Shown: positions 6,078 through 17,122 of the stretch, piece by piece | Layout of the letters: the number at the start of each line of letters is the position of its first letter | Numbering within the stretch: position 1 is the first letter of the stretch | DNA from: Saprospiraceae bacterium | GTDB taxonomy: Bacteria > Bacteroidota > Bacteroidia > Chitinophagales > Saprospiraceae | Direction of reading: 5' to 3' | Assembly: GCA_027011385.1 (NCBI GenBank) | Contig: JALVAD010000190.1 | Location: 1 to 32,179, forward strand | Length of the DNA stretch: 32,179 bases | Program-made: the position numbers and the translations under genes | The notes under the pieces: generated by a model | Database searches by the model: none | Told to the model about the DNA's origin: nothing | What the model saw: only the letters and a program-made list of their open reading frames with translations

Positions 6078-8315
6078 ATGAAAACAACAAGAAGGGAATT
6101 TATTAAGGTTTCATCGTTGGGATTGGGCGGTGTTGCTTTAGCCGGAGGAGGTTTTTCTCTATCAAAGTTATTTGGAGAAAGCAAGCATCAAGGTTTGGAT
6201 ATGAGCAAACTTAAAAGGTATCCGACTTATTGTGATGTCTGCTTCTGGAAATGTGCAGCTTGGACTTATGTCAATGATAAAAATGAGATAAAAAAGGTTG
6301 CCGGAAATGAATTGGATACTCATTGCAGGGGTAGATTGTGTCCACGAGGTACAGGAGGGCTTGGAATGTATTACGATGATGACAGATTGAAAACACCATT
6401 GATACGAGTAGAAAAGGACGGAAAACAAACGTTTAGAGAAGCTAGTTGGGAAGAAGCTCTTGATTTGATATCCGGTAAGATGAAAGATATCAAATCAAAG
6501 TACGGAGCGGAAAGTTTTGCACTCCTTAAGCACGGATCTCCAGGTAAGCATTTTGAACATTTGTTTAAAGCATTTGGCTCTGATACAATTGCAGAACCTG
6601 CTTTTGCTCAATGTAGAGGTCCACGTGCCGTTGGTTTCAAATTGACATTTGGTTCGGCTGTAGGCTCTCCTGAAACTACTGATATTAGAGATTCAAAATG
6701 CCTTGTGCTTATAGGGTCTCATATCGGAGAAAATATGCATAATTCTCAAGTACAAGAGGTCTCTGATGCTATTGATAGAGGAATAACAATTATCACAGTT
6801 GACCCAAGATTATCAACTATAGCAAATAAATCCAAATTTTGGCTACCGATAAGACCCGCTACTGATATGGCATTGCTTCTTGCTTGGATGCATGTATTGA
6901 TTTATGAAGAGTTGTACGATAAAAAATATATTGACAAGTACAGTATTGGTTTTGACAAATTGAAAGAGCATGTGCGTAAGTTTACTCCTGAATGGGCTTA
7001 TCCGATTACTGATATCAAACCAAATCAAATAAGAGAAACAGCAAGAGAAATGGCTAAAGCATCTCCGGCAGTTTTGGTTCATCCGGGACGGCATGTTACC
7101 TGGTATGGAGATGATGCTCAGAGATCACGAGCGATAGCTATATTAAATGCTCTCCTTGGTTCGTGGGGTAAAAGAGGAGGATTTTATTTCAGTGAAAAGC
7201 TGAAAGTTCCAAAATATCCACATCCTCATTACCCCGAACCAAATTGGGATGCAAAAGACTTAAGCAAAAAATATCCTTTGGCTAAAACAGGTATAACCAC
7301 TGAGGTGATTAGAGCATCAATCCCTGATGAAAATACCGAACACAAGGTAAAAGCTTGGATGGTTGCAGGCACCAATTTAACACAATCTGTTCCAAATAAA
7401 AAGATGACATTAAAAGCTATTGAGGCTTTAGAATTTTTGGTAGTTGTTGATCTGATGCCAATGGAAATAACAGGATACGCTGATGTGATACTACCTGAAT
7501 GCTCTTATCTGGAAAGATACGATATGATAAGATCTTCCGGTTGGCGAACTCCTTCAATTGCATTGAGAATGCCGGCAGTTGAACCTAGATTTAATTCCAA
7601 ACCGGCTTGGTGGATGGCAAAACAATTGGGAGAAAAGCTTGGCTTAGGAGATTATTTCAAATACAATGATTACAAAGAAGTCATCGACTGGCAATTAAAA
7701 CAATTGGGGACTTCCTTGGAAGAAATGAAGCATGTGGGTGTTATGAATTTCAATCGAAATGGTAGAGAATTGTATTTAAAAGATGGAGAAGATTATAAAT
7801 TCAAAACACCTTCGGGAAAAATAGAATTATATTCCGAAAAATTAGATAAGATGGGATTTGACCCTATACCTGTTTACAAAGCTCACGAGAAACCTCCACA
7901 AAATTATTACCGATTGATTTATGGAAGAGCACCGATGCACACATTTAGCAAAACTATCAACAATCCATATCTCAACGACTTGAAAGATACTAATAATTTA
8001 TGGATAAATCCCCGTGTCGCAGATATTTGGGGATTGAAATATGGACAAGAAATATGGATCAAAAATCAAGATGGTAAGGTTTCCGATTTTCCGGTAAAAG
8101 TTAGGATTACCGAAAGAATAAGATGGGATTCCGTTTATATGGTACACGGATTTGGTCACAATAACAAGAAGCTTTCCAGAGCTTATGGCAAAGGGGCGAG
8201 TGATTCTCAGATGATTACTAAAGTCTTGGTAGATCCATTGATGGGTGGTACGGGACTAAGAGGAAATTTTGTGACTATACTATTAGATAACCCACATAAA
8301 AACATAGAATCATGA
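6078..8315 (+). CDS. Molybdopterin oxidoreductase catalytic subunit, PsrA/PhsA-like (polysulfide/thiosulfate-type), Tat-exported
   Basis: Tat signal MKTTRREFIKVSSLGLGGVALAGG; N-terminal [4Fe-4S] motif YCDVCFWKC...CPRG; putative Mo-ligand Cys in EPAFAQCRGPRAVG; C-terminal molydopterin-dinucleotide-binding region. Followed directly by Fe-S and NrfD subunits. Confidence 0.9.
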   Translation: MKTTRREFIKVSSLGLGGVALAGGGFSLSKLFGESKHQGLDMSKLKRYPTYCDVCFWKCAAWTYVNDKNEIKKVAGNELDTHCRGRLCPRGTGGLGMYYDDDRLKTPLIRVEKDGKQTFREASWEEALDLISGKMKDIKSKYGAESFALLKHGSPGKHFEHLFKAFGSDTIAEPAFAQCRGPRAVGFKLTFGSAVGSPETTDIRDSKCLVLIGSHIGENMHNSQVQEVSDAIDRGITIITVDPRLSTIANKSKFWLPIRPATDMALLLAWMHVLIYEELYDKKYIDKYSIGFDKLKEHVRKFTPEWAYPITDIKPNQIRETAREMAKASPAVLVHPGRHVTWYGDDAQRSRAIAILNALLGSWGKRGGFYFSEKLKVPKYPHPHYPEPNWDAKDLSKKYPLAKTGITTEVIRASIPDENTEHKVKAWMVAGTNLTQSVPNKKMTLKAIEALEFLVVVDLMPMEITGYADVILPECSYLERYDMIRSSGWRTPSIALRMPAVEPRFNSKPAWWMAKQLGEKLGLGDYFKYNDYKEVIDWQLKQLGTSLEEMKHVGVMNFNRNGRELYLKDGEDYKFKTPSGKIELYSEKLDKMGFDPIPVYKAHEKPPQNYYRLIYGRAPMHTFSKTINNPYLNDLKDTNNLWINPRVADIWGLKYGQEIWIKNQDGKVSDFPVKVRITERIRWDSVYMVHGFGHNNKKLSRAYGKGASDSQMITKVLVDPLMGGTGLRGNFVTILLDNPHKNIES

Positions 8316-8848
8316 GATATGTAATGGTAATTGATACAAAAAAATGTGTAGGTTGTAGTGATTGTGTTGTCGCTTGCCAAGTAGAAAATGATGTCCCCTT
8401 GGGTTATTGCAGGGATTGGGTAACAGAATCGGTTAGCGGAAAATTCCCAAAAGTAGAAATGGAATTGAGATCTGAAAGATGCAATCATTGTGAGAACCCA
8501 CCTTGCGTGAGAACCTGCCCCACGGGAGCCAGCCATACTGTTGATGGAGGAATAGTGGTAGTGACAGGGAATAAATGCATAGGCTGCGGCGCCTGTATTG
8601 AGTCTTGTCCTTATGACGCAAGATATCAACATCCGGAAGAAGGATATGTAGATAAATGTACTTTCTGCTTCCATAGAGTGGAAAAAGGAATGAAACCGGC
8701 ATGTGTTTCTGTCTGCCCAACCAGGTGTATGTATTTTGGGGATTTACACGATCCAAATAGCGATGTTTCAAGGCTATTGGCAGAAAGAAAGTATAAGGTA
8801 CTAGCTCCTGAAGCAGGGACTAAACCTCAAGTATATTATTTGATATAG
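8312..8848 (+). CDS. 4Fe-4S ferredoxin-type electron-transfer subunit, PsrB/PhsB-like
   Basis: Four Cys clusters: CVGCSDCVVAC, CNHCENPPCVRTCPTG, CIGCGACIESCP, CTFCFHR...CVSVCPTRC. Overlaps the upstream gene by 4 bp (ATGA). Confidence 0.93.
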   Translation: MRYVMVIDTKKCVGCSDCVVACQVENDVPLGYCRDWVTESVSGKFPKVEMELRSERCNHCENPPCVRTCPTGASHTVDGGIVVVTGNKCIGCGACIESCPYDARYQHPEEGYVDKCTFCFHRVEKGMKPACVSVCPTRCMYFGDLHDPNSDVSRLLAERKYKVLAPEAGTKPQVYYLI

Positions 8849-8889: not shown

Positions 8890-9831
8890 ATGAACGAAGA
8901 ATTATTTATAAGCGGAAGAAATATTCACAATATTGATCCTCATTTGGAAATCTGGGAATTCCCAATTGCTTTATACTTGTTTTTAGGAGGATTGGCAGCA
9001 GGAATTCTACTTTTTGCTTCGATCGCAGTATTGTTGGATAAAGAAGAAAAATTGCCGACCACCACAATATGGGCTCCAATTATAGCTCCAATTGCAATTG
9101 TTATAGGGTTAGTAGCATTGGTGTTTGACCTGTCACACAAGATGTTTGTGTGGCAATTATATTTGGCAATAAGAATTGAATCGCCTATGTCTTGGGGTGC
9201 TTGGGTATTGCTTATTGTCACTCCATTATCATTTTTATGGGTGTTTTCGGATTTGAGAAAGATATTCCCAAAATTGGATTGGAAATTTCCGGTTTTGTAT
9301 AAACTTGAAGCTTTTATCAGGGAGCATAAAAAGTTTTTAGCGATGGTGCTCATTCCCTTATGTCTAATACTTGGAATATACACAGGAATACTGCTATCTG
9401 CTTTCAATGCGAGACCACTATGGAACAATGCCATTTTAGGGCCTTTGTTCTTGACATCGGGTTTATCAACAGCAGCAGCTGCAATTATTCTTTTGGCAAA
9501 ATCAGACTATGAGAAACATTTATTTAGTAAGATCGATGTCGGATTGATTATCATCGAGATTGGACTGATTATACATATGGTTATGGGATATTATGCAGGT
9601 GGAGAAGCTCAAATAGATGCAATACAAATTTTGATTAATGGAGATTACAGTACTATGTTTTTTGTATTCTTAGTCGGTCTGGGATTACTGTTCCCTCTAT
9701 TATTGGAAGTTTTGGAATTATGGGGATTAAAATTATCCGTTATTATCCCTGCAATATTGGTTTTGATTGGAGGTTTGGTTTTTAGAATTCTTATGGTAGA
9801 TGCGGGGCAATTGACGAGAATACTTTATTGA
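8890..9831 (+). CDS. NrfD/PsrC-family integral membrane quinol-interacting subunit
   Basis: Multi-TM protein with EFPIALYLFLGGLAAGILLFASI near the N-terminus, typical of NrfD/PsrC; genetic context with psrA/psrB-like genes. Confidence 0.88.
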   Translation: MNEELFISGRNIHNIDPHLEIWEFPIALYLFLGGLAAGILLFASIAVLLDKEEKLPTTTIWAPIIAPIAIVIGLVALVFDLSHKMFVWQLYLAIRIESPMSWGAWVLLIVTPLSFLWVFSDLRKIFPKLDWKFPVLYKLEAFIREHKKFLAMVLIPLCLILGIYTGILLSAFNARPLWNNAILGPLFLTSGLSTAAAAIILLAKSDYEKHLFSKIDVGLIIIEIGLIIHMVMGYYAGGEAQIDAIQILINGDYSTMFFVFLVGLGLLFPLLLEVLELWGLKLSVIIPAILVLIGGLVFRILMVDAGQLTRILY

Positions 9832-9852: not shown

Positions 9853-10620
9853 ATGCAAAAAAAATATATATTTCTGACCTTTCTTTTGATGGCTATGATT
9901 TTTGTTGTGGCGTTTGTTGCTGAAAGAAATAATTGTGATAGTAGTATTAGCGAACAGTTCCACTTTAAATCCAAAAAATGTACTGCTATGAGTCCGGAAA
10001 AACTCCTAATCACAGCACTAAGTTCAGACAGATTTATAGGAGTTGATGACTTAGCCCAAAAAATAATCAGTGAGGATCCCACATACATATTGATAGATAT
10101 TAGAGAAAAAGAAGAATTTCAAAAATACTCTTTACCGGGGGCTATTAATGTTCCTTTCAAAAATATTCTCAAAGTTAATGATAGTGAACCATTCTACAAA
10201 TCAAGTGCATATATCAAAGTGATTTTTTCAAATAATACTATGTTAGCGGATCAAGCTTGGATAATTATGAGAAGAATGGGTTGTAAAAACATTAAAGTAT
10301 TGGATGGAGGGCTAAATCGATTTTTCTTGACATTGATGAATCCGGCTAAACCAAAGGAAACTGACTCCCAACAAGCATTTGATATGTATAGATTTAGAAA
10401 ATCTGCGGGAATCTATTTTGGTATGCCTAATCCACAAGAGTTTATTCCTAAACAACAATTAGCAATTTACAAAGCCAAAAGGAAGATTGAAATTGCTCCA
10501 AGGGTACATTCAGCTAAAACGAATGGAAATAAGGCTAAAAGTCAGGTAAAAAAACAGGTAAAAATAATAAAAAAGAAGCAAGGAGAAGAGGAGGAAGATG
10601 AAGAAGACGAAGGTTGTTAA
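9853..10620 (+). CDS. Membrane-anchored rhodanese-fold protein lacking catalytic Cys, with acidic C-terminal tail ending in Cys
   Basis: N-terminal TM anchor; YILIDIREKEEFQKYSLPGAINVPF rhodanese motif; catalytic loop replaced by VIFSNNTMLAD; Lys-rich linker then GEEEEDEEDEGC-stop. Confidence 0.82.
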   Translation: MQKKYIFLTFLLMAMIFVVAFVAERNNCDSSISEQFHFKSKKCTAMSPEKLLITALSSDRFIGVDDLAQKIISEDPTYILIDIREKEEFQKYSLPGAINVPFKNILKVNDSEPFYKSSAYIKVIFSNNTMLADQAWIIMRRMGCKNIKVLDGGLNRFFLTLMNPAKPKETDSQQAFDMYRFRKSAGIYFGMPNPQEFIPKQQLAIYKAKRKIEIAPRVHSAKTNGNKAKSQVKKQVKIIKKKQGEEEEDEEDEGC

Positions 10621-10637
10621 ATATAAAAAATATTGAG

Positions 10638-11369
10638 ATGGGAAAGTCAAATAAAGGATTTGGAATTTTAGTAGCTATACTAATATTGTCATTTATAGCT
10701 GCAATATTCTATGTAACTGCCGATACGAGAAATATCGTACCCTTTGCAATGGATTATGATAAAGTATTAAGTGAAGTTTTGAGTCACAAAAATAGAATTT
10801 CACCGATAAAACTTGCAAAAATAATTGTTGATAAAGATTCTTCATTTGTATTGGTAGATATTAGAAGCCAATTTGATTATGACAAGGGACATTTGCCCGG
10901 TGCTACCAATATATTCAAAGCAGATATTTTGGAGAAAGATAATTTGGATTTTTTCAGATTATTAAAAGCGCAAAACAAAAGTGCCATTCTATATGGTAAT
11001 GATGCTGTTGAAGCCAATGCTCCTTTTATGATATTGCAACAAATCGGTATTGACAATGTCATTCTGTTGGAAAGCGGATATTCATTTTTTGAAGGCAATG
11101 ATTATAAAACTATTTCTGAAATGGGAGAGTTGGATTTGGGAATAGAAGTGGCAGCAATGGACTTCGCAAAATTGATTAATAGTGAGAAAACAAAAGCAAA
11201 AAATATAACCGTAGAGGAAGAGAAGGAAAAAGCTAATGCGAAAAAGGCTTTGAATTATAAGAAAAATAAAAAATCAGCCGTTACTAAAAAGACAGTAGTA
11301 ACAAAGAAAAAACAAATTCAAAAAACTGAAAAGAAAAACGAAGAAGAGGAAGAAGATGAAGGCTGTTAA
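10638..11369 (+). CDS. Membrane-anchored rhodanese-fold protein lacking catalytic Cys, with acidic C-terminal tail ending in Cys
   Basis: The ATG at 10638 (MGKSNKGFGILVAILILSFIAAIFYV, TM anchor) is preferred over the track start at 10614, which is a TTG overlapping the previous gene. FVLVDIRSQFDYDKGHLPGATNIF rhodanese motif; loop AILYGNDAVEAN without Cys; tail KKNEEEEEDEGC-stop. Confidence 0.82.
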   Translation: MGKSNKGFGILVAILILSFIAAIFYVTADTRNIVPFAMDYDKVLSEVLSHKNRISPIKLAKIIVDKDSSFVLVDIRSQFDYDKGHLPGATNIFKADILEKDNLDFFRLLKAQNKSAILYGNDAVEANAPFMILQQIGIDNVILLESGYSFFEGNDYKTISEMGELDLGIEVAAMDFAKLINSEKTKAKNITVEEEKEKANAKKALNYKKNKKSAVTKKTVVTKKKQIQKTEKKNEEEEEDEGC

Positions 11370-13149
11370 TGGTTATAACATCCTAGGATTGATTATTTAT
11401 CTTTTGTTTTTTTATTCGTGTACTTCCGATAATAATTCTGCTACCAATCAGACTAAATCGGAATCTTGCTTGTCTTGTCATAGTGGTATGACAGGATTTA
11501 GCGATGCTCATAATCCCGAAGCAATTGGGTGTAGCTCCTGCCATTTGGGTAATATCAATTCTGATATAAAGGAAATAGCTCACCAAGGGATTGTGCGAAT
11601 TCCCGGAAATCTTAGTAATGTTTCACAGACTTGTTCCACTACAAATTGTCATAAAAGTGAATTTAACAGGGTGAAAAATTCAATAATGACTACAAATAGT
11701 GGAATTGTAAGTATTGACAAATTTGCATTTGAAGAAGTAAATCATACCGATACTTTTTTTCATATTGAGAATATTCAAGGTACTGCCGCGGACAGACACT
11801 TAAAGAATCTTTGTTATAAATGCCATTTGGGATATGAGAAAAAACATCCCGGAGCTACTTCAGAATTATCGCGTGGTGGAGGCTGTTTGGCTTGCCATTT
11901 GAATTATAATAAACATAAAATTGATAGTTTAGCACATCCCTCTTTAGATTTGAATATCGGTAATGAAAAATGTTTTGGTTGTCATAGCCGGTCTAGTAGA
12001 ATCTCCACTAATTATGAGGGATGGTATGAAACTGTTTTGTCCAAAGAAGATGTAAAAGACTTTACCAAATATCGGATTCTACTTGATGGCAGAGTATTTG
12101 CACACGCAGAGGATGATGTTCATCATAGAGCAGGATTACTGTGTATAGATTGTCATTCTTCAATTGATGTGATGGGAGATGGACAAAGATATAACCATCA
12201 AAGTGATGCTGTCAAAATCCGATGTACAGATTGCCACCCCAAAGCAGGATTTAATAAAATAAGCCGTAAAAAGGCAGGAATTATCGCAGCTAAAGATTAT
12301 GTTCTGAGAAAATATAAATATAAAAGTAAAGAATTTATAATCACACAAAAAGATTCTGTTGCATTAGTAAATACAGGATTCAACAAAGAAGGAGCGCCTT
12401 TCTTGATTGGCAAATTTAATCAAAAAATACACCACTTAAAGAACCAGCCTGATGCTTGCCAAAAAGATAAAGTACACAGTAAGCTTGATTGTAGTATGTG
12501 TCACACTTCTTGGGTTACAAGTTGTATAGGCTGTCATACAGGATATGATGACAAAGTAAAAATAAAAGGAACAACCAAAAGAGGGAAATGGTATGAAGAA
12601 ATTGGTGAGTTTAATAAATCCTTGCCTGTAATGGGAGTAAGCTTTGATGAAGAAAAAACAATAACGCCCTCAATTCCGGGAATGATAATGACTTTGGATA
12701 AAACAGGGTTTAAAGGTGAAAAATATGGACATGATTCTATTTTTCTTCGACTTTTTGCACCAATTTCTGCACATACAATTAATCCCAAATCCCGTTCTTG
12801 TAAATCCTGCCACCTCAATCCTGAGGCAATTGGGTATGGTAAAGGCACATTAATGTTTAATAAGAATACAGGTAAATGGCTCTTTGAGTCTTTGTATGAC
12901 ATTGCAAAACAAGATAGTTTGCCACAAGATGCTTGGATTGGGTTTCTGTCGGCTATTGAAAAAAAAAATAGGTATTCGGCTCATCAAAACTTTTACCCTT
13001 TGGATTTGGATGAACAAATTAAGGTATTAAAGGTCGGGTCATGCATATATTGTCATCCAAATAATGAAGTTCTTTTAACAAAAATAATTGAAGGTAAATA
13101 CAAACAACAAATTGATAAATGCAAATATTTTATTGATAAAAATAATTAA
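11356..13149 (+). CDS. Multiheme c-type cytochrome (11 CXXCH plus 1 CX4CH), putative lipoprotein
   Basis: Heme motifs CLSCH, CSSCH, CSTTNCH, CYKCH, CLACH, CFGCH, CIDCH, CTDCH, CSMCH, CIGCH, CKSCH, CIYCH; N-terminal hydrophobic segment ending in LLFFYSC (possible lipobox). Confidence 0.93.
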   Translation: MKAVNGYNILGLIIYLLFFYSCTSDNNSATNQTKSESCLSCHSGMTGFSDAHNPEAIGCSSCHLGNINSDIKEIAHQGIVRIPGNLSNVSQTCSTTNCHKSEFNRVKNSIMTTNSGIVSIDKFAFEEVNHTDTFFHIENIQGTAADRHLKNLCYKCHLGYEKKHPGATSELSRGGGCLACHLNYNKHKIDSLAHPSLDLNIGNEKCFGCHSRSSRISTNYEGWYETVLSKEDVKDFTKYRILLDGRVFAHAEDDVHHRAGLLCIDCHSSIDVMGDGQRYNHQSDAVKIRCTDCHPKAGFNKISRKKAGIIAAKDYVLRKYKYKSKEFIITQKDSVALVNTGFNKEGAPFLIGKFNQKIHHLKNQPDACQKDKVHSKLDCSMCHTSWVTSCIGCHTGYDDKVKIKGTTKRGKWYEEIGEFNKSLPVMGVSFDEEKTITPSIPGMIMTLDKTGFKGEKYGHDSIFLRLFAPISAHTINPKSRSCKSCHLNPEAIGYGKGTLMFNKNTGKWLFESLYDIAKQDSLPQDAWIGFLSAIEKKNRYSAHQNFYPLDLDEQIKVLKVGSCIYCHPNNEVLLTKIIEGKYKQQIDKCKYFIDKNN

Positions 13150-13155
13150 TCCGGC

Positions 13156-13833
13156 TTAGCCAAACTCACTTATGCGTTCAAGCATTGATTTATTTTTTAT
13201 TTTAAAGCTTTTACCTTTTAATTTTATAAGCTTATCCGCTTCAAATTCTTTCAGGATGCGTATCGTATTTTCCATAGAAAGTCCCGCAAATTCTGCTAAT
13301 TCTTGTCTTGATAGTGGAATTGTGAATTCAAGACATCCAAAAATATGGTTTGAAAGACATAAAATCATATCGGCAACCTTGCCTCTTGAATTTTTTTCGG
13401 TAATACATAGCAGTCTTTTATAAAACCTGGAAGTGTTGTGATTGATATATTTTATAATTTCATTACTGAAAGCGACATTCTTTCTTAATACTTCTTTAAA
13501 TGCCATTTTATCATATAGCTCAACTTTACATTTCTCAAGTGCAGTTACCGTATATTGATAAGTTTTATCCTCAGTATATAAACTTGATAGACCAAGGAAG
13601 TTATTATCTCTTTTAATTGTCAATATTATTTTTTTTTGAGATCCTTCAATATATATTTTTGATATTCCTTTTTTTACAAAAATGATGCTATTACTTAGAG
13701 TACCTTGTTTGATTAAAACTTCTCCTTTGTCATATTTTATACTCGTTTTATTGTTTTTAAGAATTAATAATTCGCTTTCTGTTAGCAATTCAAATGCCTC
13801 ATTATGAGTAATATCTTTAATACAATTTGACAT
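13156..13833 (-). CDS. Crp/Fnr-family transcriptional regulator
   Basis: cNMP-binding-like domain and C-terminal HTH (IPLSRQELAEFAGLSMENTIRILKEFEADKLIKLKGKSFKI). The track start (13905) is a TTG inside a palindrome, so MSNCIKDI (ATG at 13833) is the more plausible start. Confidence 0.9.
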   Translation of the reverse strand: MSNCIKDITHNEAFELLTESELLILKNNKTSIKYDKGEVLIKQGTLSNSIIFVKKGISKIYIEGSQKKIILTIKRDNNFLGLSSLYTEDKTYQYTVTALEKCKVELYDKMAFKEVLRKNVAFSNEIIKYINHNTSRFYKRLLCITEKNSRGKVADMILCLSNHIFGCLEFTIPLSRQELAEFAGLSMENTIRILKEFEADKLIKLKGKSFKIKNKSMLERISEFG

Positions 13834-13891
13834 ATAAGCTCTTGTTGTTTCGGTAAATATAAAGTATTGCTGAGATTTGTCATAATATTTT

Positions 13892-13905
13892 TTGATAAAT
13901 ATCAA
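13892..13905. promoter_or_regulatory. FNR-type binding site TTGAT-AAAT-ATCAA upstream of the regulator, in the divergent intergenic region
   Basis: Exact TTGAT-N4-ATCAA palindrome between the regulator (minus) and the rhodanese lipoprotein gene (plus). Confidence 0.65.
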
Positions 13906-14045: not shown

Positions 14046-15026
14046 ATGAAAAAGCTTTTTAATTTATTATTGATTGTGGCATTTGTGCCTTTATTATTTA
14101 CTACAGGATGTAAAAAGGATATTGTTGATGCAGAATTTGATACACTGACAGAATACGTAAGTACTAATAATTTGGATTTACCAAATATATTGGATGGTTG
14201 GGTAAAACCCGGTTCAAAAATAGGTGTAGATACGGTAGATTACTCAGTTCCTAATTATTATATTATGGACTTTAGAAAGGCTGATGATTTTGCTAAAGGG
14301 CATATCAAAGATGCACATAATGTAGTTTTTGCTAAACTTTTGGATGAAGCTGCAAAAGCAGGCGGTAAGGATATACTTTGTGTATGCTATACAGGACAGA
14401 CCGCTGCCAGAGCAACCGGATTTTTAAGATTGGCAGGATACCATGCTGTTACGCTCAAGTGGGGTATGGCTGGTTGGAATGCTGATTTTGATGCTAAATG
14501 GGCTACAAATGCAAAAGATGTAAATTCTCCAAATTGGGTGACAACCGGTGCACCTACTGCTATTTCTGAATTCGATGCACCGGAGTTTACAACAGATAAA
14601 ACAGATGGTAAAGATATTTTAACAGCCAGAATAAACAAAGCAATTGCTTATGATTGGACAATTAGTAATTCTGATGTATTAGCTAATCCTGAAAATTATT
14701 TTATAAACAATTTTTGGCCACAAGATTCTTGGGATACTTACGGACATATAAAAGGTGCCTATAGAATAAGTGATTTAAAAGCTGAAACATTAAAGAATCT
14801 TGATCCAAAAGAAACTGTTGTTACATATTGTTACACGGGGCAAACATCCGCTATTACAACAGCATGGTTGCAGGTGATGGGTTTTGATAAAGCTAAAAGT
14901 TTGCTATTTGGAGCAAATGGAATGGCTCATTCTAAGCTTGTAGTTGGAACAGTTGGTAAAGCAGCAGCTAAATCTTGGCATGGAGCAGGAAGTGCCAGCA
15001 CATTGAACTATGGATACGTGAAATAA
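14046..15026 (+). CDS. Lipoprotein with two rhodanese domains, both retaining the active-site Cys
   Basis: Lipobox LLFTTGC; active loops CYTGQTAA and CYTGQTSA, each preceded by a substrate/D-x-R type rhodanese motif (YYIMDFRKADDFAKGHIKDAHNVVF). Confidence 0.9.
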   Translation: MKKLFNLLLIVAFVPLLFTTGCKKDIVDAEFDTLTEYVSTNNLDLPNILDGWVKPGSKIGVDTVDYSVPNYYIMDFRKADDFAKGHIKDAHNVVFAKLLDEAAKAGGKDILCVCYTGQTAARATGFLRLAGYHAVTLKWGMAGWNADFDAKWATNAKDVNSPNWVTTGAPTAISEFDAPEFTTDKTDGKDILTARINKAIAYDWTISNSDVLANPENYFINNFWPQDSWDTYGHIKGAYRISDLKAETLKNLDPKETVVTYCYTGQTSAITTAWLQVMGFDKAKSLLFGANGMAHSKLVVGTVGKAAAKSWHGAGSASTLNYGYVK

Positions 15027-15135: not shown

Positions 15136-16230
15136 ATGATTAAGATAAAATTTATAATTGCACTTCTTATTACACTATTTGCTACTCAAGCCATGTTTTC
15201 ACAAGGTTGTGAAGAGCCGGGTGAAGGTGATGGCATCAATATTTTTGGTTATATTCAACCACAATTTGAATACAATTTTTATGGCAAAGACGGTATTTTT
15301 AATAAAAACGCTGACAAAAGCGGATTTTATTTCCAAAGGGCAAGATTGGGAGTTCTGGGAAATATCCCATACGATTTCAGTTACTATTTTGTGATGGAAT
15401 TTTCGCCTGAAAGAGGTATGGGAATCAACGATGCTTTTGTCACTTACAATAGGTTTGGTCCTTACTTGAAAGTTTCGATGGGACTGTTCAAAACTCCTTT
15501 TGGATTAGAGCAAATGACAGGTTGCCACAAGTTGACATCTATTTACCGATCTCATGTCGTTGATGAATTGGCAGGACCTATAAGAGATATGGGAATTATG
15601 CTTTCTGGTGGAACAGGAGAGAAAAAAATATTCGGTTTGAAAGCTAAAAACATTTTTGGATACCAATTTGCCATTGTTAATGGTGAAGGAAGAAATACTA
15701 AAGATATTGACAATAGAAGATCATATATTGGAAGATTTACATTTCATCCTTTTGATTTTATTTCTATTGGAACAAGTTATAGATACAGCAATTTTAAACC
15801 TCTAGCCGAAGGAACTGAAAAAGACGATTATGGTACCAGATTAGGTTATGAGCTTATGTTGAAATACAAAGGCTTCAAATTATCGGGGGAAATGATTTCC
15901 GGAAGTGATGTTGGTACAATTAAATCAGGTGGTGGATGTAGCGGGTTGCCGGTGACATACGAGGAAGGTTCTGTTGACAAAAGCGGTTATTACTTTATGG
16001 CGTCATACAAAACTCCTTGGAATATCGAACCTGTGATTAAGTATGAATCATATGATCCAAATCTTGATCCCAAAGAAGGAAAAGAGGATGCATTTTCAAC
16101 AATGACATTCGGAGTGAATTATTTTTTCAATGAGTGGACCAGACTACAAGTCAATTATCTATACAATGCTGAAGAAAAGGAAAAAAGAAATGATAGACTG
16201 GTTATTCAGGTACAAGCAGTAATTAAATAA
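15136..16230 (+). CDS. Outer-membrane beta-barrel porin (phosphate-selective porin O/P-like)
   Basis: Signal peptide; GINIFGYIQPQFEYNF... FYFQRARLGVLGNIPYDFSYYFVMEFSPERG... LKVSMGLFKTPFGLEQM, typical of OprO/OprP-like porins; amphipathic strands to the C-terminus. Confidence 0.85.
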   Translation: MIKIKFIIALLITLFATQAMFSQGCEEPGEGDGINIFGYIQPQFEYNFYGKDGIFNKNADKSGFYFQRARLGVLGNIPYDFSYYFVMEFSPERGMGINDAFVTYNRFGPYLKVSMGLFKTPFGLEQMTGCHKLTSIYRSHVVDELAGPIRDMGIMLSGGTGEKKIFGLKAKNIFGYQFAIVNGEGRNTKDIDNRRSYIGRFTFHPFDFISIGTSYRYSNFKPLAEGTEKDDYGTRLGYELMLKYKGFKLSGEMISGSDVGTIKSGGGCSGLPVTYEEGSVDKSGYYFMASYKTPWNIEPVIKYESYDPNLDPKEGKEDAFSTMTFGVNYFFNEWTRLQVNYLYNAEEKEKRNDRLVIQVQAVIK

Positions 16231-16249: not shown

Positions 16250-17122
16250 ATGAAAACATATAAATTATTAGGAATAATCTCCTTGATAGTAATGATGGTC
16301 ACCGGTTTGACTGCTCAAGGGGACATAATCACGGCAAAACAATTCAAAGAATTGAAGAAAAGTGCCGATAATTTGGTAATTGTCGATGCAAGTAAAGCTA
16401 AACTTTATAAAAAAGCACATATAAAAGGAGCCGTAAATATACCGTATAAAGTACTGAATCTTGACAAAGGCATTGGTGAAGTAGCAGGTTTGCTTAAGCC
16501 TGTTGAAGATGTTGCTAAATTACTTGGTGACAAAGGAATTAGCAATACAGATATGATAGTTGTATATGACGAAGGAAGCCAAAAATATTCTTCAAGAGTC
16601 TATTGGGTGCTAAAATACCTCGGCGCAAAGAATGTAAAATTATTGCACAAAGAAAATAAAGCGTGGAGAAAAGCGCGTATTCCATTGACATCTTCATCAA
16701 CAAAACTCGATGCTAAAACTTTTGAGGTAGTGATAAACAATGATGTATTTGCTGATATTTCATTTATTGAATCAAATAAAGATATTGTTATAGTCGATGC
16801 GAGAGGCAAGAAAGAATTTACCGGTACCGGAGACAAGAAAAAAACAAAATATAGCAAAGGACATTTACCCGGAGCAGTCAACTTATTCTTCAAAGATGTA
16901 CAAAATGAAGACAAATCATTTAAAAGTGTTGAAGATATGACAAAAATCGCTGAAGATTTGGGCTTCACAAAAGACAAAACATATGTTGTTTATTGCAAAA
17001 CAGGTATAAAGGCAGCAGTAGTTTATAATGCATTGAAAAACGTATTGGGATATCCAAATGTGAAGCTATATGACGGAGCTTATCTGGAATGGGAAAAGAA
17101 AGGCAAGGCAATAGAGAAATAA
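16250..17122 (+). CDS. Secreted tandem rhodanese (sulfurtransferase), second domain catalytic
   Basis: Signal peptide MKTYKLLGIISLIVMMVTGLTAQG; N-terminal domain loop VVYDEGSQKYSSR (Asp at Cys position), C-terminal domain loop VVYCKTGIKAA (Cys present); GHLPGAVNLFF motif. Confidence 0.92.
   Translation: MKTYKLLGIISLIVMMVTGLTAQGDIITAKQFKELKKSADNLVIVDASKAKLYKKAHIKGAVNIPYKVLNLDKGIGEVAGLLKPVEDVAKLLGDKGISNTDMIVVYDEGSQKYSSRVYWVLKYLGAKNVKLLHKENKAWRKARIPLTSSSTKLDAKTFEVVINNDVFADISFIESNKDIVIVDARGKKEFTGTGDKKKTKYSKGHLPGAVNLFFKDVQNEDKSFKSVEDMTKIAEDLGFTKDKTYVVYCKTGIKAAVVYNALKNVLGYPNVKLYDGAYLEWEKKGKAIEK

Follow-up and report, generated by a model that had tools for sequence, protein, structure and literature searches.

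Rhodanese-domain proteins with a terminal Gly-Cys arm in sulfur operons of Bacteroidota: candidate periplasmic sulfur carriers

Gene Content of the Window

What do two adjacent rhodanese-domain proteins do beside PsrABC-like genes when both have lost the catalytic cysteine and both end on Gly-Cys? The question arises from a 4.47 Mb draft genome of a Saprospiraceae bacterium, in which the window analyzed here, the whole stretch of 32,179 bases, is an entire contig (C190). The genes psrA, psrB, psrC, A, B, and that of a multihaem cytochrome follow each other in operon-like order; 3′ of this run lies a regulator gene on the opposite strand, and beyond it a porin gene flanked by the genes for a double rhodanese and for a rhodanese of the TST type. 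The features are as follows.

6078..8315, + strand: PsrA-like molybdopterin oxidoreductase with a Tat-type N-terminus (MKTTRREFIK); PF00384, 8.6e-41
8312..8848, + strand: PsrB-like 4Fe-4S subunit; PF13247, 4e-28
8890..9831, + strand: PsrC/NrfD-like membrane subunit; PF03916, 2.7e-50
9853..10620, + strand: protein A, with an N-terminal anchor, a rhodanese domain without catalytic Cys, a linker, an acidic tract, and a terminal Gly-Cys
10054..10323, + strand: rhodanese domain of A; PF00581 match, 2.4e-12
10219..10251, + strand: active-site loop of A, VIFSNNTMLAD, with Ser at the catalytic Cys position
10585..10617, + strand: tail of A, acidic tract EEEEDEEDE and terminal Gly-Cys (Gly and Cys codons 10612-10617)
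10638..11369, + strand: protein B, with the same architecture as A
10833..11084, + strand: rhodanese domain of B; PF00581 match, 6.3e-13
10986..11018, + strand: active-site loop of B, ILYGNDAVEAN, with Gly at the catalytic Cys position
11340..11366, + strand: tail of B, acidic tract EEEEEDE and terminal Gly-Cys, overlapping the start of the cytochrome gene
11356..13149, + strand: multihaem c-type cytochrome with 11 CxxCH motifs and one CX4CH, distantly ExtM-like; NF040943, 2e-58
13156..13905, - strand: Crp/Fnr-type regulator; PF00027 and PF13545
14046..15026, + strand: double rhodanese with a loop Cys (CYTGQ) in both domains and no tail; PF00581, 9e-23
15136..16230, + strand: Porin O/P-type porin; PF07396, 6.7e-18
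16250..17122, + strand: TST/MST-type double rhodanese with a loop Cys in the second domain (YCKTG) and no tail; PF00581, 1.2e-34

The enzyme encoded next to A and B is of the PsrABC type, as all three subunits are present and PsrA has a Tat-type N-terminus. The best solved relative of PsrA is the PsrABC of T. thermophilus (2VPW; 6e-189), and its match to the PhsA model (1.3e-145) falls under the cut-off of that model. Relatives of the multihaem cytochrome (11356-13149) recur next to PsrABC in many genomes.

Protein A has 255 amino acids, cysteines at positions 28, 43, 144, and 255, and the end EEEEDEEDEGC directly before the stop codon. For B the best start is the ATG at 10638 (243 amino acids; a TTG at 10614 would yield a version of 251 amino acids); it ends in EEEEEDEGC, and its terminal cysteine is its only one. 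Each protein begins with a hydrophobic segment. Rhodanese is the only Pfam family matching A and B, with PF00581 above the Pfam cut-off in both and in most tested relatives, and the SoxY fold (PF13501) was not matched. By sequence, A and B are rhodanese-domain proteins without the defining catalytic residue, and they are not SoxY by fold. AlphaFold models of the two proteins, calculated from two-row alignments, reached a pLDDT of 43 and lend no support to statements on tail reach or docking. The open reading frames and PF00581 matches confirm the original prediction's description of two neighboring anchored rhodanese-domain proteins with cysteine-free loops and EDEGC ends. A frameshift introduced by assembly, looked for as a trivial origin of the tails, was rejected because two independent assemblies, those of locus L017 (a Saprospiraceae MAG, 98% identical) and genome G077 (79%), both keep the two tails.

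Distribution of the Gly-Cys Tail

Genomes of the phylum Bacteroidota were surveyed with PsrC, PsrA, or PmpB as seed, so that loci were not chosen on the tail. Most of the loci matched by PsrC in 396 genomes of the phylum were read, and in these all complete rhodaneses immediately 3′ of psrC or pmpB end in xGC(x)0-1. The PsrA seed (388 genomes of the class) added three rhodanese-bearing loci, in which every A and B protein carries the tail (6/6). With PmpB, one half of the YeeE/YedE-type sulfur transporter PmpAB, as seed (247 genomes of the phylum), 21 of 21 fusions of PmpB with a rhodanese domain were found to carry the tail, one of them already known from locus L098 and one from L073; where TST accompanies PmpAB, four of four rhodaneses do so. 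Altogether about 84 operon rhodaneses end in xGC(x)0-1, namely the 81 rows of a tail profile, which count one gene twice and thus represent 80 distinct genes, plus four more. The profile consists of G, E, or D, an invariant Gly-Cys, and zero to one further residue. The endings observed across relatives, [G/E/D/M]GC(x)0-1 with some GGCG, resemble the GGCGG arm of SoxY without being identical to it. The linker after the domain has a median length of 48 residues (33 in the fusions), and 41 of 61 tailed proteins contain no cysteine beyond residue 45 other than the terminal one.

The predicted family of such proteins, with a nearly invariant last cysteine, thus exists in Bacteroidota operons, and the expected psrABC-like context holds for the window and its relatives by operon order. 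Of the tail architecture proposed as shared, the Gly-Cys end stood, whereas the Lys-rich linker and acidic tract proved variable, many tails being basic. The constant element is Gly-Cys at, or adjoining, the C-terminus, and the stretch before it may be acidic or basic. Tail-less homologs and homologs with a loop cysteine, named beforehand as findings against the prediction, do occur, though sparsely: one B protein without tail and four proteins with both cysteines. The former is B of Chondrinema litorale (WP_284687218, 138 amino acids), which lacks any cysteine; A of the same organism (WP_284687217) ends in KKKKKVQGGCS. The entire PsrABC-PmpAB-tailed rhodanese operon of C. litorale is located on a plasmid (NZ_CP111047.1; locus L118, 246578-252515), where an IS4 transposase gene precedes it by a few kb. 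A search of a plasmid collection gave one Bacteroidota match.

Among the non-rhodanese open reading frames of at least 150 amino acids in the same loci, none of 521 ends in GC(x)0-1, which, set against the 81 rows and four additional rhodaneses, shows that the tail is not due to chance. The same count bears on the idea that the tail serves protein sorting or modification, or that it arises secondarily from a purine-rich ribosome-binding site of the gene that follows, as might be suspected from the overlap of the B tail with the cytochrome gene start at 11356. The last genes of operons are tailed too, the tail codons are varied, and a C-terminal hydrophobic segment of the CTERM type is absent; the ribosome-binding origin was rejected on the codons and the count, and this explanation as a whole is disfavored to the point of being hardly credible. 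In the genome of the window itself, 20 matches to the pattern [E/D/G][E/D/G]GC before a stop codon were examined, and the only in-frame open reading frames among them were A, B, and short repeat-derived ones. In genome G000 the string GGGGATGGGTGCTAA occurs at 18 or more sites (at least 18) and apparently belongs to a dispersed repeat. Two genes have a frame break and an intact tail: in the L095 rhodanese (9948-10545) the break lies upstream and the tail DNA still encodes KPKKKKREGC before the stop, and the other is a PmpB fusion (L177, 1501-2693). Both breaks represent either sequence error or early decay.

Loss and Regain of the Loop Cysteine

As predicted, the loop cysteine is absent from most of the family, namely from 56 of 62 tailed domains and from all 21 PmpB fusions. 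The catalytic position of the 62 domains is occupied by Ser (29), Gly (22), Ala (4), Asp (1), or Cys (6), and that of the fusions by Ala (12), Gly (7), or Ser (2). Untailed rhodaneses have Cys at this position in 22 of 34 cases.

The six Cys-bearing tailed domains belong to four proteins. Those of L088 (7670-8356) and L090 (9401-10048), from one genus, nest within a Cys-less clade of the rhodanese domain tree, in which many forks are unresolved owing to the short domain; from this nesting, their loop cysteine is likely a secondary regain with the tail kept. The third protein of both L006 (6609-7805) and L019 (8563-9759) is a double rhodanese with both loop cysteines and an SGGCG tail. It nests among untailed double rhodaneses and hence apparently acquired its tail separately, which would make it a natural case of an arm added to an apparently active enzyme. 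In one genus SGGCG ends are found on three operon-mates, an active double rhodanese among them. Since the four proteins keep or regained a loop cysteine as well, its loss is not a strict condition, and the tail is the constant feature.

Operon Contexts and Tail Charge

The tailed rhodaneses were found in four contexts. The commonest in the survey combines PsrABC and PmpAB with one to three tailed rhodaneses. In the second, to which the window belongs, PsrABC occurs without PmpAB; it comprises seven operons, and all their tails are acidic. The third consists of an octaheme tetrathionate reductase (TIGR04315, 551 bits against a cut-off of 375; 1SP3, 4e-125), a cytochrome b, PmpA, and a PmpB-rhodanese-GC fusion. 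In the fourth, an active TST (loop YCH) is encoded with PmpA, PmpB, and a rhodanese ending in RMGC (L182-L185). The transporter halves keep their conserved cysteines (CPGT of PmpB in 37/37, GCTSG of PmpA in 35/37), and through the fusions the arm is linked to the transporter.

Tail charge differs between operons with and without PmpAB. Among 34 operons with PmpAB, the net charge of the tails is basic in 31, neutral in two, and acidic in one (L146), a difference from the operons without PmpAB with a per-operon Mann-Whitney p of 3e-5, uncorrected for kinship. The contrast of acidic and basic tails is also present within two single genomes, G000 and G077. The acidic tract of the original prediction is a local variant: it goes with the absence of PmpAB, and PmpAB operons mostly have basic or neutral tails.

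Two sets of loci served for comparison. Distant PmpAB homologs located by a canonical MBL-rhodanese or by no rhodanese (L186, L187), a negative control, have no tail nearby. The PsrABC of another clade (L078-L081, L099, L100) has neither a rhodanese nor PmpAB in its vicinity, which indicates that PsrABC as such does not need the arm. The latter loci stem from a genus with small genomes, and some lie near a sulfide:quinone oxidoreductase-like gene.

Several tailed proteins have lipobox-like N-termini (LSC, SAGC, IAGC). Together with the Tat-type PsrA, these suggest that the tailed rhodaneses and PsrA are located on the periplasmic side, the side to which we infer they are exported. SoxY scored above its family cut-off in none of eight genomes.

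The window pair, which adjoins PsrABC and has no PmpAB, would also fit a docking peptide from which the molybdenum site or a haem receives its sulfur directly, with the Cys thiolate as transient ligand or as deliverer within the site, the rhodanese domain as mere anchor, and PmpAB not a partner. A precedent is the ergothioneine synthase of C. abyssi, for which relay of sulfur by persulfide to a metallopterin site has been proposed and whose Cys mutants are inactive (PMC9516567). However, the same tail occurs with the octaheme tetrathionate reductase, and with PmpAB and TST where there is no redox enzyme, so PsrA is not the common partner, and we regard the docking peptide as improbable.

The original prediction had also allowed for selenium on the terminal cysteine. 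A selenium (or tellurium) carrier in an Ext-like selenite/tellurite system could be suspected from the distant matches of the window's cytochrome, porin, and TST to the ExtM, ExtI, and ExtH models, and from the PmpB relative YedE/FdhT, which is selenium-linked. But all Ext and YedE/FdhT matches lie far under the cut-offs (for the cytochrome against NF040943, 198 bits with a cut-off of 800), the closest relative of PsrA is a polysulfide/thiosulfate reductase, and the window-type cytochrome is missing from most tailed operons; the selenium option is thus unsupported and very improbable.

Tail Similarity Within Operons

Over the eight tail residues compared in 14 A/B pairs, identity is 76% for tails from the same operon and 29% for tails from different operons. 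This match was reached in none of 100,000 permutations, a value that overstates the effect, as related operons are not independent. The rhodanese domains of A and B within operons are only 20-32% identical. Synonymous codon differences were found in 13 of the 14 tail pairs; in G272, ten of ten residues are identical and seven of ten codons differ. Recent gene conversion of tail DNA is therefore unlikely as the general cause, and may account for the pair of G678, whose tails are identical in DNA. The synonymous differences between codons and the low identity of the domains argue for selection on the tail peptide and not just on its DNA. A and B tails seem to be held alike as if both fit one partner.

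Near-identical tails would also be expected of cross-linked partners, and the main rival to a sulfur carrier is a structural or redox tether, with the terminal cysteine carrying no sulfur but linking A to B, or either of them to PsrA or PmpAB, by a disulfide. The long linkers agree with it, as does the apparent periplasmic location, where disulfides form, and a thiol in such a tether would give the same sequence pattern, which counts against the carrier reading. Yet many operons encode a single tailed protein and hence no A-B pair, the PmpB fusions keep the tail although they need no tether to PmpB, and all contexts found are sulfur redox or sulfur transport clusters. The tether is, on balance, unlikely.

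Comparison with Known Sulfur Carriers and Proposed Function

Sud, the polysulfide-sulfur transferase of Wolinella succinogenes, is a rhodanese-type partner of the periplasmic Psr and works through its loop cysteine. Profiles of A and B both weakly match Sud (1QXN), and in the window and its relatives a rhodanese likewise adjoins psrABC, but A and B have lost the loop cysteine and have a C-terminal Cys tail. DsrC has a sulfur-handling cysteine near its C-terminus. So does LbpA (PMC6067878); the folds of DsrC/TusE and LbpA are, however, unrelated to that of the tailed proteins, and they are cytoplasmic and have other partners. The Psr operon of Desulfurivibrio dismutans encodes a secreted rhodanese-domain sulfurtransferase proposed to feed sulfur systems including YeeE/YedE, but this protein has three rhodanese domains, and a C-terminal Cys tail is not described there (PMC12142623).

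The closest functional analogy is offered by SoxY, which carries its sulfur substrate in the periplasm on the cysteine of a flexible arm at its C-terminus, GGCGG (PMC6067878). Some of the tailed proteins end in SGGCG, but they all have the rhodanese fold instead of PF13501, no SoxZ partner was seen, and their arm ends in GC or GCx on a long Lys/Pro/Ala/Glu linker. In other bacteria, divergent soxY genes adjoin genes for octaheme tetrathionate reductase and YeeE/D (PMC11237559), the same partners as those of the tailed rhodaneses. For SoxT1, passage of sulfur from the SoxY cysteine along channel cysteines has been suggested (PMC11582611). Among such SoxT/PmpAB/TsuA (YeeE/YedE) systems, PmpAB is encoded in most tailed operons, but it is a tailed rhodanese, in some cases as a fusion with PmpB, that takes the place of SoxYZ.

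Judged from their sequences, A and B are probably periplasmic sulfur carriers, dead rhodaneses whose C-terminal Cys arm, similar to that of SoxY, is offered to a redox enzyme and to a transporter. The rhodanese domain minus its catalytic cysteine would serve as an anchored scaffold, with the Gly-Cys borne by a flexible linker some 30-70 residues long. On a swinging arm like the GGCGG of SoxY, the terminal cysteine would be loaded with sulfane sulfur in the form of a persulfide or Cys-S-sulfonate; the analogy to SoxY, the SoxT proposal, the cysteines of PmpA and PmpB, and the shared partners of divergent SoxY argue for this load. The arm could then move sulfur between a periplasmic redox enzyme (PsrABC, elsewhere the octaheme tetrathionate reductase) and an acceptor, which in most operons would be the PmpAB transporter. 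In the window, with its acidic tails and without PmpAB, sulfur might be donated or accepted by PsrA, by the canonical rhodaneses (14046, 16250), or by the multihaem cytochrome; the double rhodanese (14046..15026) is a possible loader of the arm. These partners, and either direction of flow, are proposals, as is the sulfur on the cysteine.

In the open-access literature, outside which most subscription papers fall, we found no rhodanese described as having a tail of this kind. For the family as a whole, we see an even chance that it represents an undescribed type of periplasmic carrier, widespread in Bacteroidota, in which the Gly-Cys arm of a dead rhodanese replaces SoxYZ and moves sulfane sulfur back and forth between PmpAB and a redox enzyme that can be exchanged (PsrABC, octaheme tetrathionate reductase, or TST), the charge of the arm being matched to the set of partners. 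For the handover of sulfur from periplasmic PsrABC or octaheme tetrathionate reductase to their partners and to YeeE/YedE transporters, the arm would provide a concrete, testable carrier. If this is true, annotations as "rhodanese-like domain" in these operons need to be read differently, as the working residue would lie outside the annotated domain, in a tail to which domain searches are blind.
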